In this document: piece after piece, positions 26,544-63,846 of the stretch
Numbering within the stretch: position 1 is the stretch's first letter
Layout: every line of letters begins with the position of its first letter
Assembly: GCA_025617745.1 (NCBI GenBank)
Contig: CM046853.1
Span: 32,939,770-33,003,769, forward strand
DNA from: Heliocidaris erythrogramma
Lineage: Eukaryota; Echinodermata; Echinoidea; Camarodonta; Echinometridae
Length of the DNA stretch: 64,000 nt
Direction of reading: 5' to 3'
Notes under the pieces: model-generated
The model's database searches: none
What the model was told of the DNA's origin: nothing
The model's input: only the letters and a program-made list of their open reading frames with translations
Translations under genes and position numbers: made by a program

Positions 26544-26618
26544 CTGAGGGTCTAGAAAGGGTACCTGCTGGTCATAAAATCCATCTGATTGGTCGTCAAA
26601 ACTAGATGGCCTGTACAT
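26544..26618 (-). CDS. ETV1/4/5-like: ETV1/4/5-like, coding exon 1 (residues 1-25)
   Basis: Reads from ATG (26618-26616) to a GTGAGT donor that begins at 26543, 25 codons, phase 0. The peptide begins MYRPSSFDDQ and contains SDGFYDQQVPFLDPQ; human ETV1 and ETV5 begin MDGFYDQQVP, so the family start aligns at residue 12 and this protein has an extra eleven residues. The ATG has A at -3 (CCAAAATGT), a good context, and an in-frame TAG lies 12 codons upstream in the genomic sequence. That TAG coincides with a possible acceptor (TTTGTTCCTTTAG then AATCTGG, exon edge 26648), so a non-coding exon may lie further upstream. The VP in QQVPF is part of the conserved block. Start choice is likely but not certain. 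Confidence 0.88.
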
Positions 26619-26648
26619 TTTGGACGGATTCTGACGTAATTCCAGATT

Positions 26649-27100
26649 CTAAAGGAACAAATATCAAACTTTGCGTAGGATATCGCACCAAGATCGCGTC
26701 GGAGATCCGAGCTGCCAAACGTCGCATGCGCTGTACGTTTGCATGTGTGGTTTACCCCCTGAACAGCTGACCAAGAGCTGACCGACGATGCTGACAGCCC
26801 ACGTAAATATACCAAAATGTCCTTCTTCCCTTCCAAAGCAGTTATCCACACTTTTAGTCCATGTCCAGCATGAGAAGGTTAAACACGTGAATAACTCTCC
26901 AATACAAGATGGAAATCTTCCAACAATGTCACTCAAAAATCATGACATAAATCGGACATCTCCATGCACCACAGAAGAGCTTTTCACCTGTCGCCAGCTT
27001 TTTGCTGTTTAAAAATTTTCGTGCACGGATCGATCGCACAAATTCTGCGATCGCGCGACAGAGGTGCGCAGACAACTATACAGGTGCAGAATAATAGAGA
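26649..27100 (-). promoter_or_regulatory. candidate ETV1/4/5-like promoter / 5' leader region
   Basis: The sequence immediately upstream of the start-codon exon is clearly richer in CpG than the surrounding DNA (for example GATCGCGTCGGAG near 26692, GATCGCGCGACAG near 27049), and repeats of the window begin only beyond about 27.2 kb. No convincing TATA box was seen in the expected orientation. A first non-coding exon could lie here, spliced to the acceptor at 26649/26648, or transcription could begin just upstream of the ATG. The assignment is by position and composition only. Confidence 0.4.
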
Positions 27101-27244
27101 ACGAAAGGCTTATAGTTATAATCTTCTCAGCCTTTTAAAGAAGCCTTCCAAATCTAGTAAATGAGAATATCACGCTTCAACAACGTGAGAAAAAATATAA
27201 AGATTAGATATTGCACTCTTGGCTTAATATTCTGAACTTAAATC

Positions 27245-29140
27245 GAAATAGGCACAGGCGTAGCCAGGATTTTTCAATAGAGGGGGCCAGACGTGAAGGA
27301 TCCAACCGCATAGCCAGGATTTCAATTTAGGGTAATTGGTGATGAGCACGCAAAGGGTTTCCCCCTTGGGGGTGGGTGCAGGGAGGGGGGGTTCCCCCCC
27401 ACCCCCTCCCGCGCAAATCTGAAAGAAATATAACGGCTTGTAGCACTGTTTTTTTTTCAGGCAGAAAGTTAGTTCGACGCCCTGGCTGCTTTTCAGTTAT
27501 TTGGACGCAATACTGCACTGTATGTAACAGGGGTGGGTGCAGGGAGGGGGAGTTTCCCCCTTCCCGCGCGAAGCGCGAAAGCTCTGACGGTTTAGCACAT
27601 TTGAGAGAAAAATAACGGATTGTAGAAACAATTTTTGTAGGCGGAAAGTTATATTTCGACGCCCGGACCGCTTTTCAATTATTTGGACGCAACATTTCAC
27701 ATGCGAAGGAGCGAAGCCATGCGTATCTAGGGATTATGGCACCCGGGGCAAACAATGAAGTTCGGCGCCCCCCCCCCCCCCCCCGAGTGCCCAAACTAAT
27801 ATCTACGTTATTGTACGAGCGAGGGAGCAAAGCGACCGAGCGGAAAATTGTTCAGTTTTTAACACTAAACAACGCATTTTCTTGTGCATTTTACCCGGGA
27901 AATTTTGCATTTGACCACCGCAGTTGAGCGGTAGAGAAGCTCGAATTTTATACATTGATAAACGGTTTTCTATTCACTCACTTCTACAATCGGGAGCAGA
28001 ACTAACAAAAACCCTATATAGGCTTGAGAAAGAGTCGAGAAATTCAGCAAGGCGACCTGTAGTTGAGTTTTCTTTCAGAAGTTGAACCTTTGCAAATGCT
28101 GTTTTATGCACTTTATCCTATATTGGGAGCGCAATATTTAGCAGGAGTCGTATGAAACTTACATAATAATAGCGAGCAAAGCAATTACATCTTTATTTTT
28201 TCAAACTTGTTTAACCCTTTAAGCTATTTAAGAACTATATACTGGGGGAGCGAAATTGCGAGATCCTGAAAGAAAATAATTATGCGAGGGAGCAAAGCGA
28301 CCGAGCTTTGGAAAATTTTCGCATTTCAAACCTTGAAAAACTAGATTTCTAGTGCATTTAACCTGCGGATTTGGGGCGGTGATCCGTAAAGATTATGATT
28401 TTTATTCATTTCCCCCTATTTTTCTTTCTCTCCTTTGCGTTTTTTTTTTGCGCCCCCTCCAAGTGCTGCACGAGGCAGGTGCCCCCCGTCCCCTAGAGGG
28501 GGTATCCCCTCCTACATCAGTGATTTTTCAAAAATCTGTCGATAAATCTTGCATTTTAGAGCATCCCAAAGTGGTTTTTAATGAAAAGAAGAAATGCACG
28601 GACTACGCCAATGGACGGAACCCCTTAACCCTTAATTGAGGATAACAATGCGAGCGAAGGACTTTTTTTCGATATTTTCGCATTGAAATTATGGCATTTT
28701 TTATTTCCTTATATACTTCTAATCACTAAAGAATGTGATGGTATTTCAAGATCAAACATCATGAGTTTGGATAATTGTTAGTTTTAAGTTAATGTATCAT
28801 AATCCAAAAATATTGGAGGGGGCGGGGTAATAATACAGGCCATCCCCCACCTCAATTCTTTTTTTTAATATATACCCCAACCCCCCCCCCCCCCCCCCCG
28901 GGATCGACACCCATGGTAACAGGGGTGGGTGCAGGGAAAGGAGAGTTATTTCCCCTCTTCCGCGCGAAGCGCGAAAACTTTGACGTTTTAGCAAATTTTG
29001 AGGGCCAGAACGGCTTCTCTCACTTCCCCTCTTTTTCGCTTTCGCTCTCGCTTTTTTTTTTTTTTTTTTTTTTTTTGGTGGCTGAATAGGGGGAGGGGCC
29101 ATGGCCCCCGGTGCCCCCCACTGTCTACGCCAGTGAAAAT
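27245..29140. repeat. cluster of CGTAGCCAGG-type repeats
   Basis: Left border GGCGTAGCCAGGATTTTTC (27250) and right border CACTGTCTACGCCAGTG (29118) are inverted versions of the same word. Between them the unit GGGTGGGTGCAGGGA ... CGCGCGAAGCGCGAAA occurs at 27370, 27531 and 28924, and GAGGGAGCAAAGCGACCGAGC occurs at 27821 and 28285. C-runs occur at 27769-27784 and 28879-28898. Such ends resemble those of non-autonomous hAT-type elements; the class is inferred. Confidence 0.5.
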
Positions 29141-29447
29141 AGGAACTATACAGGGACCTCCCCGATTATACCAAACAAAATGTTTCACACCCCTTAAGAT
29201 TCTAAACCATTCCAATAAAATCTAACTCTGAATTTCCGATTACTATAGTATTCGGCTCCTTCACAACTTTTGTTTTATAGAAGATTTAATACTTAAAAGA
29301 TTTACGATATGAGGATTGCCGAAAGTCAATATGACTATTTTTGCCATTGCCCTATACATGCATGGATGTGAACGGTGCAAAACTGTAGGAATGCTCCCTA
29401 AGGGGTGGAGATGGTGCACACTTGTGTGCGGGCTTGAAATCCAATGC

Positions 29448-29540
29448 CCAGAGATAATAATAAAGTACATTGTAAAGCGCATTAAGGTATTCACATAATA
29501 CGCTATATGAATGTTATAATTATTATTATTATTATTAACA
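29448..29540 (+). repeat. LINE/SINE-type 3' tail with ATT repeat
   Basis: AAAGCGCATTAAGGTATTC and ACGCTATATGAATG followed by (ATT)n resembles the 3' tail of CR1/L2-group retroelements, as at 37.9 kb. No coding sequence precedes it. Confidence 0.45.
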
Positions 29541-29954
29541 TAATTATTACAAATCATGTCAATGATGCAACGTTTTTTCTCAAATTCCCTTGAGTTCCAG
29601 TCTGATGCAATTATTTATTCTAAATAATGCGGTTCACTCCCATTATACAAGAAATGCTGATAAGTTTCATCATGGGAAAGATTCATCTCATATGCATGTT
29701 AAACCACTTCCCTGGTTAAACACTTCTCTTCGTTATGTATTCTTTACCTTCTTCTTTACAGTCTGTTCGATTTAATTATTCATTTAAATTTTAAAAGACT
29801 TTTTTAGAAACATCTTCTCTCTCGATCTCTTTATAATGCATAATTTTATTTCATATCTCATCTACCGCACTGAACTGCAATTCATTAAAATTTACTTTGT
29901 AACCGATACATTTATTTTTATTATTAGTGCTCCTGGTGCAACCCTTTTTCATTT

Positions 29955-30002
29955 TCGAAATTATGAACCTTCGGAATTATGAACCTTCAGAAAAATGACA
30001 TG
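29955..30002. repeat. GAACCTTCGGAATTAT words
   Basis: TTATGAACCTTCGGAATTAT is repeated almost exactly side by side. The same word is amplified at 43.43-43.66 kb and present singly at 46.70 and 47.13 kb. Confidence 0.5.
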
Positions 30003-30496
30003 ACCCGTGGTACGGTATTAGTAGTAGGCCTATAGAAGTATATAGCAGAAGCGGGTAGTAAGGTAATGCCACGAATAAAGGGATTATGTAATTATACCAG
30101 ACATAAAAAAATCATGTAATGCAGACCTAAATATGCACTTTAAAAAACGTCTAGTCATTTTTTTTTTACCAGATCGCCTGGTCACATTTTCCTAATCAGA
30201 TTCTAGTCATTCTGACTGGGATTCTGTTCATTCTTACTAGGATTCTGTTCACTTCAAACCCGAAACTGGTAGTTTCGGCTAGAATAGTACAGGTGCTCGT
30301 GGAAATAGTAATATTCTTGTCAAATTTGAATAGATTGGTTTGAGAGTGTGCAATTAGGTATACATTATATTGTTTCATAACTTCCTGGTATAAAAACGTT
30401 TACATTTTTTTTCTTCAGATGTCATCATATTATAGTTATGCGTTAAAAAGGAGTATAACACCATTTAGAATCAGGTTCATCTATCACCATCACCAG

Positions 30497-30560
30497 CAGT
30501 GGCGTAGCTACAGGTGCACGTCTGTCCCCCCCCCCCCCCCCCCATCACATGGCGAAACAA
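30497..30560. repeat. CAGTGGCGTAGC terminus plus C-run
   Basis: CAGTGGCGTAGCTACAGG followed within 20 bases by a run of about 20 C. This is the form of a hAT-like non-autonomous element end; the partner end was not located. Confidence 0.4.
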
Positions 30561-31100
30561 GGGGGAAAAGGAGGGGGAGGAAAAAAGGAGAGCAAGAAAA
30601 GGACAAAAAGGAACTTGAAACGTGACATTTGTAGATACCAATGTTGGAACATATAACTGGTTGAAATACATTTTTTGAAAGTTACTTTTAAAAAGATGCG
30701 TAATGGAGAAGGAGCGAATCACACTGACAGAAAAGAGCTTGCTTATTGAAAAAGAAATTACTTGATAATACTGGCATATTGTATTTCACGCGGGTGCCTG
30801 ACTCCCTGACTAATAGGGTGTGGTATCAAGACATCTTCATGTTTGTTGCTGGTATTTTTCGAACTCTACTTAATTCTATCGAACGTATTTGCGTTTATAG
30901 TACCTGTATAAATTTATTATTTCAGTCATGACTATATTTATACTTTAGAGGAAAGTACTTTACACTACGGAAGAGGGTTTTTTTTTCTTTCGGTGGGGTT
31001 GGGGGTTGGGAGGAGGCGTGCAATTTTTCATCATTATATACTCATGGTATCTTGCCGACATGTTTAAAGGCGTTCGAATAGACCAGTTCACATATATACA

Positions 31101-31292
31101 GTGAAACCTGTCTATAAAGACCGCTCAAGGGAGACAAGAAAAGGAGTCTTTATGAGCAGGTGGTCTTTATACGTACAGGTTCCTTTAATACAATGTTTCA
31201 ATGAGAAACAGTTTTCAAGGGAAACAAAAATTGTGTTTTTATATACAGGTGGTCTTTCTATACAGGTGTTCGCTATAGCAAGTTGGACTGTA
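31101..31292. repeat. CAGTGAAACCTGTCTATAAAGACC repeat, copy 1
   Basis: GTGAAACCTGTCTATAAAGA opens the repeat, with GTGGTCTTTATA and GTGGTCTTTCTATACAGGTG later in inverted sense. Further copies are at 56.56-56.64 and 63.92-64.0 kb. Confidence 0.55.
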
Positions 31293-32142
31293 TCTTTCTT
31301 GAATAATCGATAATATAAAGAGTGTCATGCATGATTAAATTCTTTTTATATTTCTATCTCGTATTGTTTTATTCCAGTAGGGTTTGGTGGCATGTTTCAA
31401 TTCTTACTAGAGACTGTGGAGGGATTTATCACCATCAGGATGACCAAGTATCTGATGTTTTCACGTATTTTTAACTTTTGTGAAATATACCTTTAAAATT
31501 CCTTGAATCATTCCATTTTAATAAAGTGATATTTATGGTTTTGGGGTAATTCGTATACCGCGTTTATTATTATCGAAACTCAGCATTATAATTTCATCTT
31601 ACGAAACCTTGGACCAGCCATTTTATCTTTAAAATTGCAGGGACTTTTTTTTCTGACATTTGTTAACTTCCTTCACGATCAAGTCAAAATGTTGATTAAT
31701 GTTTTCAAAAGTCCACGGCACTGTTCATCTGAAGTTTTAATCAAATTAAATTCTGATTTTAGCGGTATTATTTCATAAATTTACAACTGGGAATGAAAGG
31801 TATAATGAATTTCCATTCTCCAACAGAGTATTTCTTACGTTGAAGAACAGAACAACAACAACACCAACAACAGGACATCGCGCCCTCCGCGGCAAAGTAC
31901 AGAGATTCGATGCGTGATCACTCTTTTCTTCGCGATATCCACTAATCCTTTCAGCTGAAAGTATCTTATTAAAGATTCACATATTCTTTTCAAATGTCGT
32001 ATCCAGATTTCCTTCTTCTTATATTCATTTTCTCCTTTCCTTTTCTTGTTGTTGTCCTTCTAATTCCTTCCTTCCTTTTCTTCTTTGACTCTAAGCGTGG
32101 ACCTACAAACGAAGGTCCATGCTCTATAAGCAAGACATTATG

Positions 32143-32393
32143 GCCCGTATTCTGAACTCCGGTTTGACTTAAACTCCAGTTAAACCAGACTAAAGCTACC
32201 CCTAGCTGCAGTCTACATTCTCTACAAAAGCAAACCACACTTAGAGTATATACTGCACTGGAGTTTAAGTTTTACCGGAGTTGTGAATGTGAACACCTGA
32301 AACTCCGGTTTAAAGGGCAGATTTAGACTGGATTTTAAACCGCACTTATATAGACCGCGGTTTAAGTTAAACCAGAGCTCAGATCATACGGGG
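32143..32393. mobile_element. long imperfect palindrome (GCCCGTATTCTGAACTCCGG)
   Basis: Left arm GCCCGTATTCTGAACTCCGG, TTTGACTTAAACTCCAGTT; right arm AAGTTAAACCAGAGCTCAG, ATCATACGGGG. Inner words GGAGTTTAAG and AACTCCGGTTTAAA pair again, so most of the 250 bp can fold. MITE-like. Confidence 0.55.
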
Positions 32394-32442
32394 TTATAAC
32401 TCTCGTATACCTTTGCTTGTGTTCCTTTCATAACATCTCCCC

Positions 32443-32445
<3 letters not shown>

Positions 32446-32481
<36 letters not shown>
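32446..32481. repeat. CT microsatellite
   Basis: (CT)n of about 36 bases. Confidence 0.9.
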
Positions 32482-32483
<2 letters not shown>

Positions 32484-32689
32484 CTTAATCCCTTAAAGAT
32501 TTCTAATGCAGATAAAAAAATAGCTGATTCTTTTTTTTTTAAATATTCTCCTCTTGTTACATTAACGGAAACCGATAAGCAAGGCTCCTTTCACGTAATA
32601 ATGTACAAATGACGCAAAACAAATTCGTCTCTACAAGATATTTAATAACCAAATAAAACTTGGCCGTTTCCATGATAAAAACAATTGGG

Positions 32690-33066
32690 AGGATACCCCC
32701 TGGAAAACTATCCCCCGGACAACTACCCCTCGGACAACTACCCCTGGACAACTGCCCCCAAGGACAATTACCCCCAGGACAACTACCCCCTGGACAACTA
32801 TCCCCTAGGACATCCCCCAGGACAACTACCCCCAGGACAATTACCACCCAGGACAATTACCCTCCGGGACAATTACCCCCAAGAAAAATTACCCCCATTA
32901 AATGATGATTAACCCCCCCCCCCCCCACCCGAAAACAAACTTTAGACCCCCCCCCCCCCGGACAACTACCTCCTGGACAATTACCCCCCTCCGGACAACG
33001 ACCCCAGGGGGTAGTTGGCGGGGGGGGGGGGGTAGTTGTCCAGGGGTAATTGTCCAGGGGGTAGTT
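32690..33066. repeat. GGACAACTACCCC minisatellite with inverted second arm
   Basis: From about 32690 to 32895 a unit close to CCCCCAGGACAACTA (15 bp, variable) is repeated more than ten times. After C-runs at about 32909 and 32947, the unit resumes, then appears in reverse complement (GGGGGTAGTTGTCC, GGGGTAATTGTCC) from 33004 to 33066. The two arms can pair over long stretches. The frames it opens (PPGQLPPGQL-type) are by-products. Confidence 0.8.
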
Positions 33067-33653
33067 ACCCGGATACGATCGATTATCAAAACTTCCATCA
33101 AAGAAGAAAAATATCTTTAAATTCTTATTGCGTGATATCTGCAAACTTTGCATAAGCTGACATAACCTACCAATTGAAAAAGGAAGATATCATCACCCTC
33201 ACAAAATACCAGCGAATATAAGTTTTTGTGAAGAATGTAGTATGCAGACGGTAGGAGACGAATTATGTCATGTAATGTGAGAAGTTTAGAATAAGGAGAT
33301 ATCTGTTTTTGATAATCTCATTCAATGACACTCAATGATAACTTTGAAATCATAAACGGTTTGGAGAGATTCATGTTTATAATGTTACTCAAAGAAGTCG
33401 CTCTCATAAAAGAACTGGCCAACTTTTTGTGATATACTGTCGATCGACGTGGTAACCTTTAAAGTGTTTATTATTAGGCATATTTATCATAATGTATAAA
33501 TATAATTATGTATATAATTCTTTTAATGGTCTTTTTCTCATCACCTTACACTACTTATACATAATCTGATCATTTTTTTTAATTGGTTTTTGTTTATGTT
33601 TTGATTGCTATATACTCGCGATATATTGTTATGTTTTGTCATGTGTTACTCTT

Positions 33654-33766
33654 ATCATTATTATTATTATCTTTATTATTATTTTTATTATTATTATTAG
33701 TAGTAGTACTAGTAGTATTATTATTATTAGTAGTAGTAGTAGTAGTAGTAGTAGTATTGTTATTGT
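33654..33766. repeat. ATT / AGT trinucleotide block
   Basis: (ATT)n shifting into (AGT)n and back; compound microsatellite. Confidence 0.9.
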
Positions 33767-34329
33767 TCTGATTATTGATGTTATGTTAGAACAAAATATT
33801 GATGGATATGTCAGTGAAGTTCAATGAATGAATACATAAACATGCGACAGTATATATACGGGATTATAATGATAAATATATATCAAACTTTTGCATTTGT
33901 TTCAGTGCTTTTTTTCCTCCGTTCTGGTATGAAAATTATTTAATCATTTATCTGATTATTAATCCAATAAGTTATTGCTTTGACAACTTAAGGAACTTTG
34001 ATACCATGGATTCGAGCATAGATCAGTAATCAAGTATATGATTTATACAAAATACATCGTAATTATGTATAATAATTTGATTTTATTTGTGAGACATAAA
34101 ATTCCCAGTATATAGGGCAAACATAGAATGATAATGATGACACTCCCTGAATCATAGGAATTATAACTGTTACTTGTAGACTAATTCATATTCAAAATAC
34201 GTTAGACAGTCAGATCCAACCAACATACAAAACCCTTTTGCTAAATACACAATTTAATGTCAACACGGATATTACCATTTCTGTTTAATCAATATATAAG
34301 CGTAGAGCGCAGAGTAAAGCAGGCAAAGT

Positions 34330-34432
34330 CCCCCGCCCAGAAACATTGCGCCCCTTCCGCCCCTCCCGCCACCCTTCATTCTGTGGAGGATTCCGCCTCC
34401 AATAGCAGTTTCTTGATCCGCCACTACAAGCT
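34330..34432 (-). repeat. GTAGTGGCGGATCAAG terminus, GC-rich
   Basis: On the minus strand GTAGTGGCGGATCAAGAAAC opens a GC-rich stretch (GGAGGCGGAATCC, GGGCGGGGGA). This is the start typical of hAT-like non-autonomous elements. No partner end was seen. Confidence 0.35.
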
Positions 34433-35537
34433 TAGTCAATTTGTTTCCATCAAACAACAAAATTTTAGTTATGTTGAATTGGTTTATGTCCACAACAAAT
34501 TTAATTATTAAATTAAGTTTATATCCACAAAATCCCATATGGAATTCTTTAAATTCTCTGTCGTTATCATAATTATGAATAGCCTATCTGCTGTTTCCCT
34601 CTCCTCTCTACTTCTTCATTTCACCCTAAGATATTTTGATACGCATCCAATTTTTTCGCAACGTAAAGGCAATTTTTATAATTACTTCAACAAGATTAAA
34701 TTATGAAAGCATCTAAATGTCGATCAAACGGGCTTTAAAGGAACACATATACCACTTCAATAAATAGGTTTAACAACGCAGTGACTCAGAATGTAGGGCA
34801 CAGGCAATATGTGGCGTATTAACACCAAACAACAAATTGACGATTCAATAAAAGACGAGAAGAAGAATAAGAAAGGGGGAAAAAAGAAGATCTTCATCTC
34901 CGTTAACAACCCGCGGACGCAGATACGGAGGGAGAAAAGGCGTTGCCATGGGAACCATGACGTAGGTGAGGGCACATGTTGCATGCCCAAGACGTCTTGG
35001 TGAATTTTAAACGAACGGTTGGGAGCTTCTTCTCCGACTGTCTGTAAGGATTGATATGCTGAATAAACTCGACGTTATGAAATATTTTGAAAGCCACACA
35101 TGTCGCTGAAAGTAAAGCCGTTTTTGCCACTTGATTATTTTTTTACTGTCAATATACTTTGTGCATTATGTCACCAAAACTCGTCATATCATTAAAAAAA
35201 AGAGCTTATCAACGTCACCAACATTACTATCAGGAACATTAAGTCCCTAATGATCATTCTCAGTCATTAGCATTCTTACCAACATTTACAGTCTAATTCC
35301 CAGGGGCTGGGAAGTGGGGAAGGGGGGGGGCGATAAGTTTAGGAAGCTTAGCAACTGAGCTGGAAAAGATTCTGTGAGGATATATCCCGCTGAATAAGAA
35401 GATTTTTTTTACATTCTGCAGTATGAAAATTGTGCATATGAATGACGCCCTTGTTAAATTACATTTATAAAATTTTGCAATTTGTAATTTGGAACTTCAG
35501 ACTTAAATATTACTTCTGATCACACAGGCAAATAAAA

Positions 35538-36065
35538 AATCTGATCTTAATATCCGTACATTTCCTCTTTTCTCTCAGTGAGGTTAGGAAGCGTTAAACA
35601 ATACAATTTTGTGGCGATTTTAGAAATGCCGGGGAAGACGCCCCCCCTTTTTTTTTTTACTTTTCCGTGGAGAGGCGTTCCTCTCCTCCTGCAGGACTCA
35701 TCCACCTTGCATTTCGTAGTATAGGCTCTACATGTATTTGGGAATTTCCACCCCAAGTTTAAAGATTATACTTGTGGTGATTTCCTGAATTCTGGGGAAA
35801 AATCTGATCTTAATATCCGTACATTTCCTCTTTTCTCTCAGTGAGGTTAGGAAGCGTTAAACAATACAATTTTGTGGCGATTTTAGAAATGCCGGGGAAG
35901 ACGCCCCCCCCCCTTTTTTTTTTACTTTTCCGTGGAGAGGCGTTCCTCTCCTCCTGCAGGACTCATCCACCCTGTATTTCGTAGTATAGGCTCTACATGT
36001 ATTTGGGAATTTCCACCCCAAGTTTGAAGTTTATACTTGTGGTGATTTCCTGAATTCCGGGGAAA
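35538..36065. repeat. 263-bp tandem duplication
   Basis: The block starting AATCTGATCTTAATATCCGT at 35538 starts again at 35801 with very few changes (longer C-run, CCTTGCATTT against CCCTGTATTT). The second copy ends near 36065 at TTCCGGGGAAA. High identity suggests a recent event. Confidence 0.85.
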
Positions 36066-36469
36066 TGGGTTGATTTCCCTTGAATATTTTCCTGAGAAAG
36101 GTGCCCCCCCCCCATCACAGACCCCGTAGTTTGTAACTGGCTCTATAAACTTCATTCTCTAGTAGTTGTAAGTACACAGTGAAATACCAGGCTCTGAGTA
36201 AAGTTTTACCCAATCACAATCATCTTTTAGTTAGGAATTGAGCAAAATATCACCCGCATGGGACATAATTGCCTCAAATTTGATCAGACACAAATTATAT
36301 TTACCCTCAGTATATTTGTTTACCTTATATTTTTTTTGTAAGTATAAGTTATGGATGGTAAAATATCCATATCTGCATCCCTTGAGAACTAATGCTGGTT
36401 GAGAGTTCAATAGTCGGCTTGTTATGGGTATAATTGAGATAGAGTTCTGTTCTTGAGGTAAAAAAAAAA

Positions 36470-36640
36470 TGGGGCCTGTCTCATATAAAAGTTGCGATTG
36501 ATCCGCATTGATGGAGCTTAACTTGTGTTTGATATCAATCACAAATCTGTACTTAAGAAATAGACGATTGTGACTTTGGGATTGATTGGTGGACTTACGG
36601 TCGATTTGGTTCAATCGCAAATCTCTATAAGAATGCAGGG
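36470..36640. mobile_element. GGGGCCTGTCTCATATAAAAG MITE
   Basis: Left end GGGCCTGTCTCATATAAAAG then TTGCGATTGATC; right end TCAATCGCAAATCTCTATAA then GAATGCAGGG. The arms are imperfect inverted repeats, the plan of the GGGCCCTGTTTCATAAA group. Confidence 0.5.
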
Positions 36641-36839
36641 CGCTGGCTGACACTTTTATCCAGAGCCATCCATAAACTGAGTTGGCAAACTCAGTTACAG
36701 TTGGTCGTTACGAACTAAATAGATCAATAGAGATCTAGATCATCTCCTTATAATTATTCACTATAGCGAAAACATCATTAACTCTGAAGGATGACGGAGC
36801 TAGTGGTTGATAAGATCATAAGACTTCTGACTGGCAATT

Positions 36840-37085
36840 TTATCCTACAGTTGCCTAGCTGTTTGCATATCATATCCTGTATATATTTTGTAACATTAAC
36901 GAAGAATGAACAACAAATTTATTTTACATATCGTCTTACAGACAGATGTTTGCTATTTCAATTAACCACGCTTTTGCATTGTCTATGATATGGAAACTAC
37001 ATCGTGAAAAAAAAATTGTCTTAGATTCATTCCTTCATCATGTGTGCACTTGCAGTTTCCTCTCCATCCGTCGTCATGGCAACAC
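36840..37085. repeat. interspersed repeat shared with 40.5 kb
   Basis: CTACAGTTGCCTAGCTGTTT (also at 38570), TCAATTAACC, ATGGAAACTACATC and CTCCATCCGTCGTCATGGCA are matched in order at 40494-40670. Confidence 0.5.
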
Positions 37086-37521
37086 TCTTTCCCTTTTTTA
37101 CCTCGTACGAGGCACTTTATTCAAAAATCAGTAACAAATATTTACAGAATGTACATTGCCATTGATGACATTAAAAATCAAAGATACTGAAGTACTCGAT
37201 CAATTGCCTTTGAATCATGGTGTTAACGAATAAATCTACATCTTAAATATTGACGTAATTCCAAATTTGTCCACAATACTTTAGCCGTAGCATTAGCTCT
37301 TGTTTTTTCTCTATGAATTCTTAACATAATCTTTATAGATAACATATTGTACAAAATTTATAATGATATTAATCATGAAATTATTGTCGTCTGTAACATT
37401 AAATCCAATTACCATAACATCGCTATCAACTTTTCCTCGTGTCTGATATTGATAAAAAAAATAATTCATTCATTATCTTTTCACAAAATCTTTACTCCCT
37501 TGCAATCAAATAACATGTGCA

Positions 37522-37878: not shown

Positions 37879-38003
37879 TGATTATTTTGACTTTCTTTTG
37901 TTGCCTTTTTCTCTTTTTTCTCGTATCTCACAGCGCCTCGGAATAGTTTACTAGATTGATGGCGCTTTACAAATGCTTGTTTATTATTATTATTATTATA
38001 TAT
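37879..38003 (+). repeat. 3' tail of the LINE fragment
   Basis: After the stop come CAGCGCCTCGGAATAGTTTA, GATGGCGCTTTACAAATGCT and (ATT)n, the usual 3' end of the element. The insertion therefore spans about 37.53-38.0 kb. Confidence 0.7.
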
Positions 38004-42348: not shown

Positions 42349-42353
<5 letters not shown>

Positions 42354-42382
<29 letters not shown>

Positions 42383-42517: not shown

Positions 42518-42549
<32 letters not shown>

Positions 42550-51250: not shown

Positions 51251-51268
51251 TGGACAATTTCATAAATT

Positions 51269-53219: not shown

Positions 53220-53670
53220 CATTACACTCATATATTTAAAAATGAGTTTATTTTATGCCCTTCTGACTCTCAATCAGACGATATTGATTTGGTCCTTCTT
53301 TAATCCATCAGACAAACTCTTGACCAAACTTAACCCCTTCCATGCCACCAGACTTTTGAGAAAATGTAAAAAATGAATTTTCAATTGTTAAATATTACCT
53401 TTCAAAGAGTATTTCAAAGAGCAAACTGGGCAAAGTTAATATTGCATAAGAATAAACATTATACTGATGGCACAGGTTTCTGTATGAGGAAGAAATTTCA
53501 AGCCATTCAGAGGCTAAACAAAATGTTCAACACTCAAAATTTTGGGCGGGATTTGCCACCCACGGCATGCTAGGGGTTAAGGAGGAAAGGGATTAATCAT
53601 CTGCTGAGACCCCAAGGGGTGTTAACTCACATTTTTACACCTCGTTAATACCCTTCTGGCTCTCAATAGG
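53220..53670. repeat. CCCTTCTGGCTCTCAAT words
   Basis: GCCCTTCTGACTCTCAATCAGACGATATTG (split here as a motif at 53259-53288) recurs at about 53650 as CCCTTCTGGCTCTCAATAGG and at 62555 as CCCTTCTGGTTCCAAACAGAC. Boundaries are unclear. Confidence 0.35.
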
Positions 53671-54907
53671 CAACATGCATTTCAAAATTGTGATTTCTGA
53701 AAAAAAATCTAACTGTAGATATATATGAACACCTTCTCCATTTCCACCAGTCATGTTTTGGACATGCCTGAACTGAGGTCCTCATTTGGCAAAGTCCTTT
53801 ATGTTTTTAAAATTGAACACCCCACATCTCATCAGATTTTTTAATCATCGCCCTCCCTTGCATATTTCAAAGAATGATATGGCAGTGTAAAAATCTCTTG
53901 GTGACATCAAAATCATTTTATAAATTGCTCAGTACTTAGCATCAGAGGAGAACTTCAAAACAAACAGAATTATTCAGGTAGTATAATGGAAGATCGAATC
54001 TGATGACAGGAGAAATTAGAGAATACCACATCGCTACAACGTTTACCATATTCTTGCTAACTCTGGAAGTTGGAACACTAACATATCTGTACAAAACATC
54101 TAGAAAAATATACACTCTATACACAAAATATTTCTACTTTTATATATAGAGAAAATCCTGGAATAAAAGTATATTTATCAAGGAATAGAATATCTAGAGA
54201 TCCCTTTTTTTCTTGAGGAGTTTGCTTACCAATGCAGTGGTCCCCTATACCTTGATAGAAAATGGAAATTTCTTATTATGTTTAATCAAATTCATCAAAA
54301 TCTACTAATCATTGAAACAAAGTATAAGAGGTAGTAGCAGCAATGCATGTATCATACTTGAATGATCAGATGACTTAAATCCCAAAATGATGAAGATAGG
54401 TAAAACAATCTTTTCTGATTTTTTTTGTGTGAAATATAACAAAGAGTTAAAAAAGTAATTGGATAGAGTGTCACGGTATCTATCTTTTTTTGCCTTCTTG
54501 AACAGCACAAGTTCATTCATGCGATGCATTGGGACTTATTGAATCTCAGCATCTGAATGGTACAAACCGGAAATGTGAGTACACTCATATTGTGAGGAAT
54601 GAATGAGAGAAATAAATCAATATTTGAGTGTTAACAGCAGTCCATTCATGGGGGACATTATACCTTTGGAATGAAAAGAGGGCTCAAATATTCAGCTCAC
54701 ATGAAACATAGCAGGGAATCAGAAATGATACAGGAACAATAAGTCTGATGACTGACTTGCAAACTTTTTTTTTTGTGCACACAAAATGTGCATCCCCGGT
54801 GTTTAGATCACTACCTAACTTAACTATAAAATAACATGTAGAGCAGTGGGAAACATAAAAATAATTATCCACTCATTGATTGCCTACTGAATGCTGCTTA
54901 ATGATGC

Positions 54908-54945
54908 TACTGAAATTATAGTCATGCGTGACTATAATTTCAGTA
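54908..54945. repeat. perfect 17-bp palindrome with 4-base spacer
   Basis: TACTGAAATTATAGTCA, spacer TGCG, then TGACTATAATTTCAGTA. Partial repeats (TAATTATAGTCACGCATG) follow at about 54983-55000. Confidence 0.75.
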
Positions 54946-55809
54946 ACATCATGCTACTGAATGGTGCTTATGAGACACCCCTGTAATTATAGTCACGCAT
55001 GTATTTCAGACGACTAACATTCAACCTACATGCTTAACACATGATTGCAAAGACCTCGAGAAATTAACCAAAGTCGATTTCAAAATCCTTGTCCACCACC
55101 TTTGGAAATGTGCAAACGTCACAATGGCATTATTACAAAATGCCAACATGATTTCTTGAAGACAAAAATGTAGGGGAATCAAATGGCCCTTGAGCTGGTT
55201 TTATTTTCAAAGTCTTAGCAGTTGTGTTCACGGTGCATTGCACTGATGAAGGAATTACAGTAATGACTATTCAACTCTAGAAGAATTTCGAATTACACTA
55301 TCATGTGTAGAAAGGATAGCCAAAGTCACTACTAGATAGAGCTCGACTTTCTCTATAACTTCAGATAGATTTCGTTGAAAATTCACTTCTGATTTTCAGG
55401 AAAAATCCATTATTACAAACCTTTCTCGTGGCAGCCAATTAATAAATGAAAATTGTGACTGAGAATTACTATTCGATCTGCTGAAAATAGCATTTATAAT
55501 ATAGTCAAAAAGAAAAAAGAAAAAAAGTGGATTCATTTATCTGAAGTAATCCTTAATAGAAAGAGCCAGCTTTCCTCAATGGAATAAATATGGACAATTG
55601 ATATTTTTATTTTCTTGTCATTATTTGCTGATGAAGTTGTTATTGACCTAATTCTAAGAGAAAAATCAGTATATGGATATCAGGAAGTTAGTTCGGAAAG
55701 GATTTGTTTTCTACAAATTTTTAATGAAAATTGATATAACGTAGATTTCATTGATGCAGCTGGATAATTTGCATAATATTAAAGTCACCCAATTAAAATA
55801 TTTTGAATA

Positions 55810-56199
55810 TTAAAGATATAGAGTTCTGGTCATGCAATAACATTGTGAAAGAAACTGTCTCAAAGCATTGGGAAAGGTTGACCATGTTTACATAAGAAGT
55901 GTTTTATACTGTGTTGTTTTGGATTCATCTAAATAGATAAGAAATTGACCCAATCTCACTGAAGAGCATGTGTATACTGCACACAGAAATGGGTATATGG
56001 GACTACACACACAAGTGGCATGAATGTTCTGCCCGAACATTTCAGCTACTTCTAGTCGTATTTCGAATGTAAGAGCATTTGAAGAGCAATCATTTTCAGG
56101 GGAGGTTTCTAATATGATGTTCTTCCAAACTGACACAAAAGGAATGAGAAAGCTCACAAATTATTTTTCACCTTTCCCAGAACTCAAGATTCCCTTTAA
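55810..56199. mobile_element. family A MITE, complete with TTAA at both ends
   Basis: 390 bp starting TTAAAGATATAGAGTTCTGG and ending CCAGAACTCAAGATTCCCTT plus TAA. The inverted ends and TTAA borders make this the reference copy for the family found at 4.2, 10.6, 11.8 and 24.6 kb. Confidence 0.75.
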
Positions 56200-56555
56200 A
56201 TCCCAGTGCAGTCTTAACCCATTGACTATGAGAAGTGGGTGGTCCCTGTATTAAGCCAATGGCAATAAGATAATTCAGTATTCAACAGGTTAAGCTTTCT
56301 CAGACTACCTTCTTTCCTACATGCATGAAGTATATGGAGTATCAAATGGAGAACTCCTTCACAACAAAGAAATTCCAAACAAATATCACTTGATATACTG
56401 CTAAGACCCTAGTAACACCTTAAAACCAACCCCCCAAAACAGATCGACTCGAAGCCATTTGTCAAACCTGCTTTAGGATTAACCATCTGTAAAGAAAAAC
56501 CACAATTTTTTTTTGTATCCCATAAACGGAACTTTCCACTGATCAGCATAAATAA

Positions 56556-56640
56556 AGGAACCTGTACATAAAGACCGCCTGCCAGTACAGACCGCTTTTT
56601 CCGTTTCCCTTGAGTGGTCTATATAGACAGGTTTCACAAT
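56556..56640. repeat. CCTGTCTATAAAGACC repeat, copy 2
   Basis: GGAACCTGTACATAAAGACC, then GTGGTCTATATAGACAGGTT, the inverted form. Related to 31.1 kb. Confidence 0.5.
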
Positions 56641-56695
56641 ATTTTATATGGTCTGTTTCCGGTCTTGTTGGTGTGACTCAGGTATGGAGAAACTA

Positions 56696-56832
56696 GGGGA
56701 GTGTTTCATCAAGTGTTTTGTCAGTGATTTTTACCGACAAATTTGCTCTCAGCCAATCAGATGCAAGGATTTCAGTAGCTTATAACAGTTGTCGGTAAAA
56801 CTCACTGACAAAACACTGGATGAAATGCTCCC
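56696..56832. mobile_element. GGGAGCGTTTCATC-type palindromic MITE, copy 2
   Basis: 137 bp, left end GGGGAGTGTTTCATCAAGTG, right end ACTGGATGAAATGCTCCC, with inverted arms of roughly 45 bp and the core CTCTCAGCCAATCAGATGCA. Very similar in the core to copy 3 only 160 bp away. Confidence 0.75.
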
Positions 56833-56989
56833 TAGGTATTCAATTCCTTGCAGGTAATAGATCCAAGAAACGGGGTATTCCATTATGTACCTATCATTTT
56901 TGTTGTTGATGGTGTCATCTTACATACTGCATTTCATTGCCCCAATGTTAGAGCAAATATTTTAAATCTATCAGTTTCATGGCAATTCT

Positions 56990-57127
56990 GGGGAGCGTTT
57001 CATCAAGTGTTTTGTCAGTGATTTTTACCGACAAATTTGCTCTCAGCCAATCAGATGCAAGGATTTCAGTAGCTTATAACAGTTGTCGGTAAAACTCACT
57101 GACAAAACGCTTGATGAAACGCTCCCC
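56990..57127. mobile_element. GGGAGCGTTTCATC-type palindromic MITE, copy 3
   Basis: 138 bp. Left end GGGGAGCGTTTCATCAAGTG and right end CGCTTGATGAAACGCTCCCC are perfect inverted repeats for this stretch; the arms continue into GTGATTTTTACCGACAA / TTGTCGGTAAAACTCAC. Confidence 0.8.
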
Positions 57128-58141
57128 TGTTCTCAGTGAACTTGCTGTAAAGGGAGGAGTAAATGCTTTTGAAAGTGAGTGATTTGGAAAGAAGATACCT
57201 GCACACAAACATTTGTCGGATGGAAACCACCCGTTAAATCTAAAGAAGAGAGTCCACGTAACATATGCGCAATACAGATACACTCATGTCCACACTCATC
57301 TAAAAACGCTCAAATCATAACAAGAAAAAAATAGATTCTTAAAATCATGACACTGTCAATGAGAAGGTTCTTTCAATAATCAGTTCCACATTCAAAATGA
57401 ATGAACTTCTAGGAGAAAACTGCTGCAGTTTGCAAATATTGTTGCTTTGTCATGCTACAAGATCTTTCTAAACATGCTGCTGTGTGCCTTTTAATACAGA
57501 TTTTTGCCAACCCAGCAACAGGGGTTCCGGTGTTTAAAATATGAACTTGTCAAATCACAATTATTCTTTGCGGATGAAAATACGGTTTAAGAACTTCTCT
57601 CAGAATAAAGTGTCTGGCAACAACTTTTTGTGAAATTTTATCAGCTGCGTGATTTCAACCTGAAGCTGATGCAGGTTTAATCTTGTAGGTGTACATATGC
57701 ACAGACCCGCTTCCACATGTCACCTATGGTTAATGAGTTTGTTAGCATTCTAAAAGGTTAGTCCCAAACATTGAGCATGAGGATACCTGCATAAACTTGC
57801 AACACCAGATTAATATCCCATACCAACAAGTTCTTAGGCTTTATAACGTTTTGAATAATAAATACTAAAATAATAATAAATGAAACTCAATGTTTAAAAC
57901 AGATGGGAGGTACCCTTCAAAAATATTCCAATATTTTTTATTCTAGTCAAGATTTTGCTGTACATGATTATCAATAAGACTCATGAAGAAAATAGGTGAT
58001 ATAAGATACCCAAACTAAAAAAAAACAACCAGTTGTCGAAAAGTCACAATGAATTCAAAAGATCAAGGTTTCTGAGAGAATCATTACCACATCAGTTGGA
58101 AACAGTGTAAAATAAAGCAAAAGTTCTTAGTATTACCATCA

Positions 58142-58285
58142 GGGCCCTGTTTCATAAAACTTGATATCTATGACAAATTACAATAACAGTATAAGCTACT
58201 GAAATAGTTGCATCTGATTGGCTGAGAGCAAATCTGTCATAGTTATGTGTCAGTTGTTATTGATAAGTTTTATGAAACTGGGCCC
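58142..58285. mobile_element. GGGCCCTGTTTCATAAAAC palindromic MITE, related family in reverse
   Basis: 144 bp, from GGGCCCTGTTTCATAAAACT to AGTTTTATGAAACTGGGCCC. Its core CATCTGATTGGCTGAGAGCAA is the reverse complement of the core in the GGGAGCG-type copies, so the families share an origin while the ends differ. Confidence 0.7.
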
Positions 58286-58649
58286 TGGTGCCTTGTTTTT
58301 TCTGCACACACAATTTTTTTTTTCTCTCTAAAGCTTTTCTCAGAAGAGGAAGACTACAGATAAAATACAAGATTCTTTTGAACTTTAACCCCTACAGTTT
58401 TTCTCATCACCAGCATAAAATTCATGGGCAGTGATTTGAAGAACAAAAAAAAGTATCCAAGGAATCCTGACTCTGAGATGAAAAGGATGAATTTTTAACA
58501 AGTCATTTTGAAAAACAAATCCCAAGTACAATCATTGGCGTTCACGTATTCACAAGATAACATTCTGTTATCAACACTTTTTTTGCTTGGAGAAATAATG
58601 TGAGGTATACACCTTGTTCCTTTCATTTGTCACCTTAATATCACTGAAT

Positions 58650-58728
58650 GAGACACAGAGAGAGAGAGAGAGAGAGGGTAGCGAGAGTGGAGGGGAGAGA
58701 GATAGATAGATGGAGAGAGAGAGAGAGA
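58650..58728. repeat. GA microsatellite
   Basis: (GA)n twice, separated by GGTAGCGAGAGTGGAGG. Confidence 0.9.
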
Positions 58729-60779
58729 CTAATTGTGCCTAAACATTTCATAATAAAATGGCAGCAACCCACTAACTCCAGATAAAGATATTGTTGTCTT
58801 GGAACGTGGAGGGTAAATGCAATGTATATTCATGCCTAACTTGAAATTATTTCAGTTTCCCTTAATATAGCCCAACACCAATGATACATATCATACAGTA
58901 TTAAAACAACAAATTATGGTACAATTAATTGCAGATGTTTAAAAATAGTTTTCATTAAAAACTTGTGGAAATATTTTATACCTGTTATAAAGAAAAACCA
59001 AAGTCGTACAAGGTGTTTTGAATTCCACTATATTAAAATTTACCTGCAAATTGTTACATAATCTCAAACTCTTCAATGTTTCTTAACCTAAAGATATACA
59101 AATAAAACTTAAAACGTTCTTGTAAAGGCCATATATTTATATCTGAGTTTCTGAAATATTTTCTGAATAATACAAAATGTTACTTAATAAAGGACAGTGA
59201 TCTATACACAGATGTTTCTTACTTTTATATTTATATATTTATACACTACTACTACAGCTGCCAATATAATGGTATATAATTGCTTGCTGAAACCAGCTCA
59301 GACAAATGCTTAAATAATCCAAATAACGCTTTGAATTCGACAAAGCGAATAACTGATATCAGTTAAATAAAAATGGATATCATACAGAAAGCTCATAGTA
59401 ACCAGTTATAATATAGCTAAATCAAAATACAACAATCATTACTCATTATTACTTTTTTTTTCCCCTTTCATCATTAATGTTCCTTGTCGGCTTTGATTGC
59501 AAAAGAACTAGTCAATTCTGATAAAAAAATGCAGAACCTGGTGATGGAGATGTAATGAAAAGTTTTCCTAGATAAAATTTAAGAAATTGATTCATCAAAA
59601 TAAAAAAACTTTTCATGTAAACAAGGATTGTAATGGTTAGATAATTACAAAGGCCATTCATTAAAATCGAACTCATGATCATTGTTTCTTTATATTGACA
59701 AAAATAAACAATAGATGGAAACACGAGAACGTTGAGACCTGATCGTTCTACAGAACTGTCAACAGAAAGTGGCACCGAGAATCAAAAGGTGCATGTTTGT
59801 TTATCATGAATAAAACCACTCATACTTCAAAAAGTATCCAAGGTATTGTAAATCCTAATATTCAGTTTTATAAAATCTTATGAAATAATAAAAAAAGAAA
59901 TATACATTTAATAATCATGGTATCAATGTGGATAAATATAAGTATAAAAAACCCCACTAACATAATTTCAAAAGGAAAATAAAGTACAAACTGTACAACA
60001 GGGAACTTGTCAAATGTAATTGTGAATAGTATAAATGAGACTATATAAATATGGCTAACTTACCTCCACCTATGACCATATAGAAAATAATATTTTCCTT
60101 CTTGATCAGCGATATCACAGCGCATTATTACTTCAAAATCATCACATGGCTTGTATTAGCAACAGGTAACAGGTAAAAGTAAGGAAACATACTGCACATA
60201 TATATATAGTTCGAGCATAAAATATCATTGTTAAAATTAAAACACATTTACACCCCTTTTACCTATGGAAAGACAAGTGATACAGACATATCTTACATAA
60301 CTTCAAACTGCAATTACCTCCACCACCATAGTATATTCATACACAGAGATTAAATAAACATCTATCGTAATACAATTTACCATGATAAAATCTTCTTATG
60401 TTATAATAGATATTGAAACAAAATAGAAAAGGCTGCAAAATTAGCATTGGAACTTGTGCACAGATGAATAAGAATTAAAAATCATAAAAACTGGAATAGG
60501 AAAAACTTGTGGTCATCTTTGTCTTCATACATGTATTCTAACAAGCAGGGGGAAAAAAATGTTACAATTCCAATATCACTATATTTGTTGAATGCCGGAT
60601 ATGAGTTTATGTTGTTTTCTTCGCTCGTCTATATACCTGAAAATGCAATCTTCTATATGAAGTAAGTAAACGTAAACTTTTCCCAAATTCCACTTTCTTG
60701 AATGTTAATTCTACACTCATCCTTAGAGTAGTTTAAAAGGGTGGAATAAATCTTTGTTTTCCCCATTCATGGTGGTCAA

Positions 60780-60785
60780 TTTATT
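60780..60785 (-). terminator. candidate polyadenylation signal for the kinase gene
   Basis: TTTATT on the plus strand gives AATAAA on the minus strand, about 1.39 kb after the stop codon, and is the first canonical hexamer met reading downstream. Other AATAAA hexamers exist further on, so use of this one is unproven. Confidence 0.3.
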
Positions 60786-61878
60786 GTTTGACATGGAGTA
60801 TTGAATTCTCTTTACGATGAAATGGTCTGTTCACAAATTCATTTGAATATTATACTAAAGGATATATTCTGCGCAGTAATTTATGTCCCGTCTGCATCAT
60901 TTAGTTTGGAATCCATTGAAAAATGCTTCATATTATGGAACAAAATTTGGTATAATTAATACTAATTCAACCAAGATTTGGAACTAAATCTTGCAAAATA
61001 ATTGACCACTGCTTTAGTACATGAAGTGATTCAAATCAAACTGATAATCCATATCATTTCTTTTCTTTACACATAGCAAGCACATTGTATACAAAATATT
61101 CAACAAAAGAAAAATAAAAACTTACTCGACAAAAATAAAAATAAAAAGTAACATGCATGATCATATAAACGCACGTAGGTCCTTTCACACCCTAAAAAGT
61201 CTGTTGCAGAAGACTAGTTCAGATTATTATTTAATAACATATCATGCATGGAATGAACTCTCTTGACACTTTTAAAACCATCTGCGTTCATCGTTTGCAT
61301 TGCACCTTATATAAGATAAAATATCTGTACCCCTTATTCCAAACCTAATATCGTATCCTAGTGGAATTCCGAATAACTAATATGTTCTACTTGCATCCAT
61401 TTCTGGTGAGATTCTTTGATTTCTCGTTTTTTCCACCCATACCATATAATTATACCAACTATATGTACTGCCATATATTCTATCCTTGAAAATACCTATA
61501 GATGGTATAAAATTCATAAATCTGTGGCGCTCATCAGTATCTTATTCCAGGCTCTAATACAAATTCATCACATAGGAACAATCTCTTCTTTTTGACGAAT
61601 AAGATTCCTCTTTCTCAGTATCATTCAAATTGACATCTCGAATGCAAAATTTTCATGAGTTCCATTGCATGCCTGATAGCACTATTAGACTCCATCACCC
61701 AGACTCCACATCCTAAATGCTCCATGCTCTGGAATACTTCTCCTCCTGAATCATCGGCTGGAATGCAGATAGTCTCTCTTCCCCAGTCGTTTTGCTTAAG
61801 TATCTATAAACATAATTCTGCATATCTATACCTGTGTTGGCTCCACCACAAACTCTTGGTTTACTTTTATACAACTCT

Positions 61879-61880
61879 AC

Positions 61881-61915
<35 letters not shown>

Positions 61916-61965
61916 ACAGCATCATAATCATCATCATCTTCATCATCATTAATAGCATCAGCATC
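61879..61965. repeat. ATC microsatellite in the kinase 3' UTR
   Basis: (ATC)n with AAC/AGC interruptions; would appear as (GAT)n in the transcript. Confidence 0.9.
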
Positions 61966-62174
61966 AGCCATGAAGGTGCAGCCCCTTGCTCTGTGACTCT
62001 CCATCTCGGCCGGACCGCATCCCTTTTTATCTTGTGGTATCCTTGAACACACTCTCGCTCTCTCTCACACTCAGGAATGGAAGGCAATAATTGAAAAGAG
62101 ATCGGAGGAGGAAAACGTTGGGGAGGTTTCCCTCCAGAATCCAATCTTAAGTTTCTGCATCTCTGCGGCGGGTC

Positions 62175-62306
62175 TCATAGATGCACATCGCTACTCTCGT
62201 CCGCATCAATGCTCCCCTTGCCAAACAGTTTTCTGATGCCAGAGAAGCTTTTCTTAGGTGGAGGTCCCTTCTGCATAGGTGTGCTGTTCTTGTGTGTTAT
62301 TGATAT
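62175..62306 (-). CDS. DGKA/B/G-like: diacylglycerol kinase, last coding exon and stop
   Basis: 132 nt from a CCCTGCAG acceptor to the TGA at 62177-62175. It encodes 43 residues: ISITHKNSTPMQKGPPPK, a basic stretch (KKSFSGIRKLFGKG) and an acidic end (SIDADESSDVHL). Human DGKA/B/G continue after DGEPW with PCTIKITHKNQ and a GPPP motif, so the alignment is unambiguous up to GPPPK; the last 25 residues are lineage-specific. The end -VHL has the hydrophobic-x-hydrophobic form of a class II PDZ ligand, a suggestion only. Confidence 0.95.
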   Translation of the reverse strand: MSITHKNSTPMQKGPPPKKSFSGIRKLFGKGSIDADESSDVHL

Positions 62307-62599
62307 CTGCAGGGAAAATCAAAGAGATAAATGTTTGTAATCCTCACCATCTCGAAATGATTTCTAATACTAGGAAAAAAGATGATTCTCAATTGCTCAA
62401 AGAATCTGTATAATCCACTCCTTATCAAGGGTGATATTCTAAAAAAAATGACTAACACATTTACTCATTAAATAGAGTGTTGATTTTCATATTGTCTTTT
62501 TGGAGCCAGAAGGGCATTAACTATGTGTTAAATATGTGTTAAAGTACCTGCCTAAAACCCTTCTGGTTCCAAACAGACAATATGTCTTGATTGGTTAAT

Positions 62600-62934
62600 T
62601 TAAAGGGAGTGGCAAGTCGTAATCCATGGGCCTGACCAGTTGGCCTGACTCGGGGAAATTTGGATACAATCAGGTCCAATCGTGCGCTACCGAAGGAATG
62701 TTATTGCCGAATTCCTCGCGTGATCGTTAACTCGAATCCCTACATACGTAACCGACCAATGAGATTCAAATACTGGAATAAAGAACGCGCGATCTTGTTT
62801 ACTCGAATTTGGGTCAATGTGCGAACTTTTATTAGCTGTGCACGATAAATTGAAGTCGCTTTGAACTTTGATCCAGAGAAAGGAGCAGCCAACTGTAAAA
62901 CCGCCCATAGATTGCGACTTGTCGCTCCCTTTAA
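62600..62934. mobile_element. TTAA-flanked MITE in the kinase intron
   Basis: 335 bp including TTAA at both ends. Left TTAAAGGGAGTGGCAAGTCG, right CGACTTGTCGCTCCCTTTAA, an inverted match of about 24 bp with one substitution and a two-base difference. The interior has several CpGs (TTCCTCGCGTGATCG), suggesting a fairly recent arrival. Probably a piggyBac/Kolobok-type non-autonomous element. Confidence 0.75.
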
Positions 62935-63384
62935 TAAAGGCATATCCGGTTTTGATTATATTAATGATCTCAACCTGTATGCAATGGAGACCTGAAGTTG
63001 TTATCAACCAAAGATTTCTTTTTCTTCTGAATCCAAATGAAGATTCTGGATTCATATGACACTCAAGACTATATTCACTTTGCCTATCTCCCACCAAAAT
63101 CTAAATGAGTTTGAATTCATGACAGGCTGTCTGGAGAAAACGTCATATTCTTTGGGGTATTCTACACAGATCATCAGAGCAGCAGGTACAGACACTTTTC
63201 TGTCTCTCTGGATGGTCTTCATCAACGCCCTCATAACATATATTTACCTTACCTGAAAAAGTTCTAGAACATTGTTATGATCATAACTAGGTTCCCTGAA
63301 TTCCCAACTTAACCTAAAATCCAACTGCATTCCTAACCCTGACCTGATATCTTTGACAAAAAACCAGAAACATTCATGACATGA

Positions 63385-63540
63385 AACTTCTGCGCATTAC
63401 AAACGAAAGCCTTTTTCACAGCAAAACACCTCTGTGACTTGTAAAAATTTAGTGTTATGTCCGTTACGATTTCATGATTTCACGGCATTAAACTTTGGCG
63501 AATATGAACCACTCACAAAATTCACAAACATTAAATAGGC
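63385..63540. repeat. interspersed repeat, copy at 63 kb
   Basis: Same series of words as the 15-kb copy (TTTTTCACAGCAAAACACC, TTTCACGGCATTAAACTTT, ACAAACATTAAATA) with substitutions typical of CpG decay. It lies in the kinase intron. Confidence 0.5.
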
Positions 63541-63664
63541 GCGACAGTTTCTGGTTCCATAGTAAAGCCCGGAGCAGTTGTCGCCAGGCCAAATGCCGGG
63601 TCACCTTATTATGATCATTATCATTCATCATTATCATTACTATTATACATTGTGTGCTACTAAC

Positions 63665-63846
63665 CGTGCATGGAGGTTGAAGCCAAGGCTCTCCATCAAT
63701 CTGCATGGGCACTCGTTTCCTGGTCCTGATGGTTACTGTCTGACACTGGGCTAACCTTCGACCCGACGACCTGATACCAGCCTTGACCTGACCTACATGG
63801 AGTGAGCCTTCTAGGCCCACCACCTCCAACAGCTTGTCTCCTATTG
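63665..63846 (-). CDS. DGKA/B/G-like: diacylglycerol kinase, penultimate coding exon
   Basis: 182 nt between a TTATCTTTTTGTAG acceptor and a GTTAGT donor. After two bases of a split codon it encodes 60 residues beginning [18 protein letters not shown] and ending [11 protein letters not shown]. Human type I kinases read [17 protein letters not shown], then GRRLAQC, then PMQxDGEPWMQPPCT in the same order. The DGEPW block is the most conserved signature at the end of the DAGK accessory domain. Leaves the frame at a codon boundary (phase 0), which fits the next exon exactly. Confidence 0.95.

Follow-up and report, generated by a model that had tools for sequence, protein, structure and literature searches.

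In a 64,000-nucleotide stretch of the Heliocidaris erythrogramma genome (hereafter the window; C1:32939770-33003769, where C1 before a colon denotes contig CM046853.1), the minus strand carries coding exons of two genes: the final two of a diacylglycerol kinase and the initial four of an ETS gene of the PEA3 family. When the window was extended by 50 kb on its lower side and by 150 kb on its upper side (joined region C1:32889770-33153769, 264 kb), the arrangement was that of a type I kinase followed by a PEA3 gene, both on one strand of the same contig and placed head to tail, with the kinase exons found running in protein order from C1:33069329 to 33001944 and those of the ETS gene from C1:32966387 to 32916234, all on the minus strand. 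The kinase stop codon (TGA, window 62177-62175) and the ETS start codon (ATG, 26618-26616) are separated by 35,556 bp. This agrees with the preliminary description of this DNA, which had placed both genes on the minus strand with a gap of 35.6 kb and whose bounding coordinates coincide exactly with exon edges, 63846 being the first base of the second-last coding exon of the kinase and 26544 the last base of ETS coding exon 1. We consider it probable, at about 0.8, that this pair represents the unduplicated state ancestral to the human DGKB-ETV1 and DGKG-ETV5 pairs and is older than the vertebrate duplications.

The type I class of diacylglycerol kinases is defined by a recoverin-homology N terminus, EF hands, two C1 domains and the catalytic and accessory domains. 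In the window, the second-last coding exon (63665..63846, minus strand) is bounded by AG and GT sites, enters in phase 1, leaves in phase 0 and encodes the end of the accessory domain, and the last coding exon (62175..62306, minus strand) follows a splice acceptor, with a translation that begins ISITHKNSTPMQKGPPPKK and an encoded product, read from 62306 to 62175, of ISITHKNSTPMQKGPPPKKSFSGIRKLFGKGSIDADESSDVHL before the TGA. Judged, like all Pfam matches here, by the curated family cut-off, these two exons joined gave a DAGK_acc match of 55 bits (E 1.6e-14, cut-off 27), and the last exon matched a DGKA C terminus by tblastn at E 7.5e-4. Neither motif inspection nor tblastn revealed a kinase catalytic domain within the window; it is encoded in the flank, on the same contig and strand. 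A DGKA probe aligned to the joined region in 14 pieces in protein order, with the kinase extending upward on the minus strand. Ten stretches, eight from the kinase and two from the ETS gene, were scanned with Pfam, and 8 of the 10 exceeded a cut-off. For the kinase, two exons matched DAG_kinase_N (PF14513, 61.3 and 34.1 bits, cut-off 23), reaching C1:33069329, two separate exons matched C1 domains (31.9 and 32.3 bits, cut-off 26.5), the first catalytic exon matched DAGK_cat (28.4 bits, cut-off 23.6), with further catalytic exons recovered in the genome search, and an accessory-domain stretch matched DAGK_acc (63.6 bits, cut-off 27). The one EF hand scanned, in a single exon, stayed under its cut-off (EF-hand_1, E 4.4e-5, 23.2 bits against 25.4), as did a third exon corresponding to the end of the second C1 domain (13.8 bits against 26.5). 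The predicted domain architecture is that of the type I, or DGKA/B/G, kinases. A search of PDB sequences with the kinase fragment returned 0 matches. Across the source genome (1,064,227,859 bases in 26 contigs), DAGK_cat was matched 18 times at E 1, on 7 contigs; this kinase and a second copy of it, described below, account for 6 of these matches. On contig 4, three closely similar kinase catalytic exons lie within about 615 kb (C4:30585856-31200763), two of the three matches containing internal stop codons; this trio is perhaps a tandem expansion or a set of further haplotigs. Upstream of the kinase exons found, C1:33084405-33087293 and about C1:33099208-33126640 hold long open reading frames (ORFs), including ones of 963, 401, 974, 676 and 616 amino acids, which by eye resemble retrotransposon proteins.

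The four ETS exons in the window are mutually consistent in splice sites and phases. Coding exon 1 (26544..26618, minus strand) runs from the ATG to a GT donor with the translation MYRPSSFDDQSDGFYDQQVPFLDPQ, and exon 2 (26151..26247, minus strand) has AG and GT sites and a fitting phase. Exon 3 (13662..13709, minus strand; 48 nt, phase 1-1, AG/GT) encodes the acidic helix ELFHDLDQLQEEWLAD, and exon 4 (7516..7578, minus strand; 63 nt, phase 1-1, AG/GT) translates as DFGYGPESEPEQYVPDFQSEN. Joined, they matched ETS_PEA3_N (PF04621) at 76.4 bits (E 4.8e-21, cut-off 30), the addition of exon 4 having raised the score from 57.3 bits. Taken singly, exon 1 reached 15 bits, under the cut-off, and exon 4 gave no match, because single exons of this gene are too short for the Pfam threshold. 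By tblastn against a PEA3 N terminus, exon 3 matched at E 1e-4 and exon 4 at E 0.008. According to one study, human ETV4 goes from 484 to 468 residues when exon 4 is skipped, a loss of 16 residues or 48 nt, and this exon encodes much of the MED25-contacting activation domain (PMC10066307). Exon 3 here is likewise in frame and 16 amino acids long, and its 48-nt, phase 1-1 layout is evidence for the PEA3 subfamily that does not depend on the Pfam score. An ETS DNA-binding domain was found within the window neither by motif nor by tblastn; it is encoded 21.6 kb below the window by two exons of the same contig and strand (C1:32918167-32918018 and 32916461-32916234, minus strand), which match Ets at 39 and 76.7 bits (cut-off 26.9). 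Additionally, the genome-wide search with PF04621 at E 0.001, in which 3 candidates were scored, returned a single match, an exon of this same gene at about C1:32925155-32924928 that reads FQRQTSEPCF...KQEPVDYGYEA. The PEA3 fragment retrieved from PDB sequences only a meaningless designed protein (E 9.9). The ETS gene is assigned, on its predicted protein, to the PEA3 subfamily (ETV1/4/5 type). Exons, splice sites and Pfam domains, in the window and in the flanks on the same contig, agree with both gene identities proposed in the preliminary description as well as with the strand.

For the comparison with vertebrates, we take human DGKB-ETV1 to lie at 7p21 and DGKG-ETV5 at 3q27, in both cases with the kinase upstream of the ETS gene and on the same strand, and human has three PEA3 genes and three type I kinase genes, the remaining members being ETV4, at 17q21, and DGKA, at 12q13. 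The same two gene families are adjacent in these human pairs and here, the human order and orientation being our assumption; against the three PEA3 genes of human, one was found here, with an interval of 35.6 kb. As for adjacency itself, published studies describe human DGKB as the flanking gene of ETV1 (PMC3027657), place a human single-nucleotide polymorphism at chr7:14084440 in the intergenic space between ETV1 and DGKB (PMC7466756) and list ETV1-DGKB as one copy-number locus (PMC10105686), and in the cat DGKG and TRA2B lie within 200 kb and 150 kb, respectively, of a polymorphism located in an ETV5 intron (PMC7699364). The earlier claim of neighbouring pairs finds support in print for ETV1/DGKB and, as one region in the cat, for ETV5/DGKG. 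The chance that a given gene lies this close upstream, on the same strand, of the sole PEA3 gene in 1.06 Gb is about 1.7e-5, a figure that is arithmetic on genome length only. Together with the match to two human pairs, it argues for descent from one ancestral pair, which would have duplicated to give DGKB-ETV1 and DGKG-ETV5. The proposal that the linkage predates the vertebrate duplications is thereby supported in part, by order and strand here and by the match to the two human pairs, with the shared human orientation being what we take to be the case.

Several observations weigh against this reading. The case for retention comes from a single invertebrate together with vertebrates. Probes for IGF2BP and TRA2, genes located near ETV5 in human, had no match in the joined 264 kb, which extends 26 kb beyond the ETS exons on their side, so that the region showed no other member of the human 3q27 neighbourhood. 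The 18 DAGK_cat matches on 7 contigs mean that further type I kinase genes are possible elsewhere in the genome. Finally, a second copy of the 3' half of the kinase and of part of the interval is present at C1:33356770-33393769, 372 kb away on the same strand.

With regard to the interval between the two genes, stop-to-stop ORFs overlapping it number 61 of at least 76 amino acids and 145 of at least 60. Fifty-four of the 61 were scanned with Pfam and none exceeded a cut-off (the 84 ORFs of 60-75 amino acids were left out, and 2 of the 7 unscanned longer ones overlap or adjoin PEA3 exon 1). No recognised gene intervenes among the ORFs scanned; small-exon genes and RNA genes outside Rfam are possible. 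Across the window, the Rfam scan gave no family at gathering score and the tRNA search found none. Matches to DIL, Avian_gp85, GFA, NDUF_B6, Fun_ATP-synt_8 and Extensin_1 in interval ORFs, and to DUF1420, Ldi, SVM_signal and NPR1_interact in ORFs elsewhere in the window, were below the Pfam cut-offs and were taken as chance. The interval also contains simple repeats, a 265-bp unit in tandem duplicate at window 35535-36065 (97% matching) and a 15-nt C-rich minisatellite of about 13 copies at 32694-32897 (TACCCCCAGGACAAC), with inverted relatives at about 33007-33072.

The base composition of the interval is divided in two. A change point in the observed/expected ratio (o/e) of CpG was located at window position 47370 with a gain in log likelihood of 41.5, which none of 1000 permutations of 250-bp bins matched (highest 11.7), these permutations ignoring the correlation between adjacent bins. 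On the ETS side, 26620..47370 has a CpG o/e of 0.84-0.85 and a TpG+CpA o/e of 1.04; on the kinase side, 47370..62174 has a CpG o/e of 0.38-0.39, like the kinase gene body. Elsewhere, the PEA3 body had a ratio of 0.41 over the part reaching from the ETS exons to exon 3, and of 0.63 in the stretch that separates exon 3 from exon 2. The kinase body stood at 0.49, the DNA above the kinase at 0.56 and that below the PEA3 gene at 0.84. TpG+CpA was elevated in the gene bodies as well as at 47.5-62.2 kb. In invertebrates, gene bodies typically carry methylation, and their CpG is lost over time. The simplest reading of this pattern suggests that kinase transcription, or else an unrecognised transcript, may run about 14.8 kb beyond the kinase stop codon, and that the roughly 21 kb beside the ETS promoter may be intergenic DNA of germline-unmethylated appearance, a candidate cis-regulatory space. 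The boundary is less neat than this picture would have it, since two 3-kb bins within the PEA3 intron are also CpG-rich (16.0 kb, 0.81; 22.0 kb, 0.96), and repeats of differing age could shift the measure. An AATAAA at 47324, near the change point, was not used as evidence; seven such signals occur in the two stretches inspected.

Why the pair would have been retained can be framed in two ways. On the one hand, the ETS gene would be controlled from within the interval or the kinase introns, and the kinase would be held in place as a bystander; we consider this the likeliest mechanism of retention and give it about an even chance. A more specific form, in which an ancient bilaterian regulatory block would have its PEA3 enhancers in the 21-kb CpG-rich interval and the kinase introns, and kinase transcription would end near 47.4 kb at the edge of the ETS regulatory domain, is tentative and rather unlikely as a whole. 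The arrangement resembles genomic regulatory blocks, composed of a target gene and a bystander, in that a transcription-factor gene likewise has as its neighbour an unrelated gene of large size and long introns; those blocks are defined by conserved noncoding elements, chromatin contacts and enhancer activity. On the other hand, the linkage could be ancient but neutral, the two genes simply never having been separated and sharing no regulation, an explanation to which we give somewhat less than an even chance. It accords with the fact that no sign of shared control was found, the window being devoid of Rfam families at gathering score and of tRNAs, but the close adjacency in the same order, both here and in two human pairs (whose orientation we take to be the same), exceeds the usual chromosome-level linkage.

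A different kind of doubt concerns the assembly, since an assembly join had been put forward in the preliminary description as the circumstance in which the linkage would be spurious. That the linkage is an assembly artefact, produced by falsely joining kinase and ETS gene, is very improbable in our estimation. In its favour, the kinase side is present twice on the contig, 372 kb apart, so the region is either hard to assemble or duplicated, and the second copy does not have PEA3 exons 1-2 at the expected place. However, the joined stretch C1:32889770-33153769 was checked for gaps and contains 0 N, and the uninterrupted sequence from PEA3 to kinase speaks against a join. Additionally, the sequence of window 44.5-49.9 kb recurs in the second copy, again next to the kinase and with its order unchanged, and joining at random would not recreate the human arrangement. 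This second copy has its catalytic exons at C1:33381875-33383206, as located by the genome search, and the eight pieces of kinase protein found in it agree with the first copy wherever both were aligned. Its DNA matches the window from 52,257 upward in nine collinear segments, each exceeding 300 bp, whose identity is 91-99% and, for the four longest, 98.3-99.1% (one 365-bp off-diagonal match at 84% was set aside), and beyond a run of 2,500 N bases it aligns to window 44,524-49,881 at 97.1%. None of four sampled stretches from C1:33298770-33339769 (5 kb in total) matched the joined region at E 1e-10. From these unmatched stretches and the absence of PEA3 exons 1-2, the second copy appears to start inside the interval, at a place equivalent to window 27.5-44.5 kb. 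It is probably an unpurged alternative haplotype (haplotig), a reading based on the N run and on a divergence of 1-3% for the most part, rising to 9% locally; a recent tandem duplication is less probable. The least credible of the alternatives is independent convergence, in which the pair formed once here and again in the vertebrate line. In its favour, one invertebrate genome was examined; against it, order, strand and distance would have to coincide by chance, with a probability of about 1.7e-5 for any given pair, and we take both human pairs to have the same arrangement.

A literature search, whose coverage lacked most subscription papers, found no description of a DGK-PEA3 linkage as ancient. 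The terms dgk, etv and diacylglycerol are absent from the main texts of PMC8851819, PMC6292497 and PMC9023564, and the two DGKB passages of PMC11155191 are unrelated to DGKB/ETV1 synteny. The interpretation of the pair as inherited from one ancestral linkage has a wider parallel in animals. Irimia et al., writing in Genome Research in 2012, reportedly described ancient conserved microsyntenic pairs of metazoans, in which a developmental regulator likewise stands beside an unrelated gene and the order is kept across distant animals.

The kinase-PEA3 pair is probably a further example of ancient neighbouring genes, with a CpG boundary inside the interval. Should the pair prove ancestral, a single old arrangement would account for the position of both human ETV1 and human ETV5 beside a diacylglycerol kinase, and ETV4 and DGKA, which stand alone in human, would be remnants of pairs that each lost one partner. 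It would also point to where old enhancers of ETV1 and ETV5 may be sought. Both genes have been reported in disease, ETV1 as rearranged in prostate cancer (PMC3027657) and ETV5 at diabetes and obesity loci (PMC7699364). A compact block with one PEA3 gene, as found in this sea urchin, would be a convenient place for asking whether the linkage is functional.

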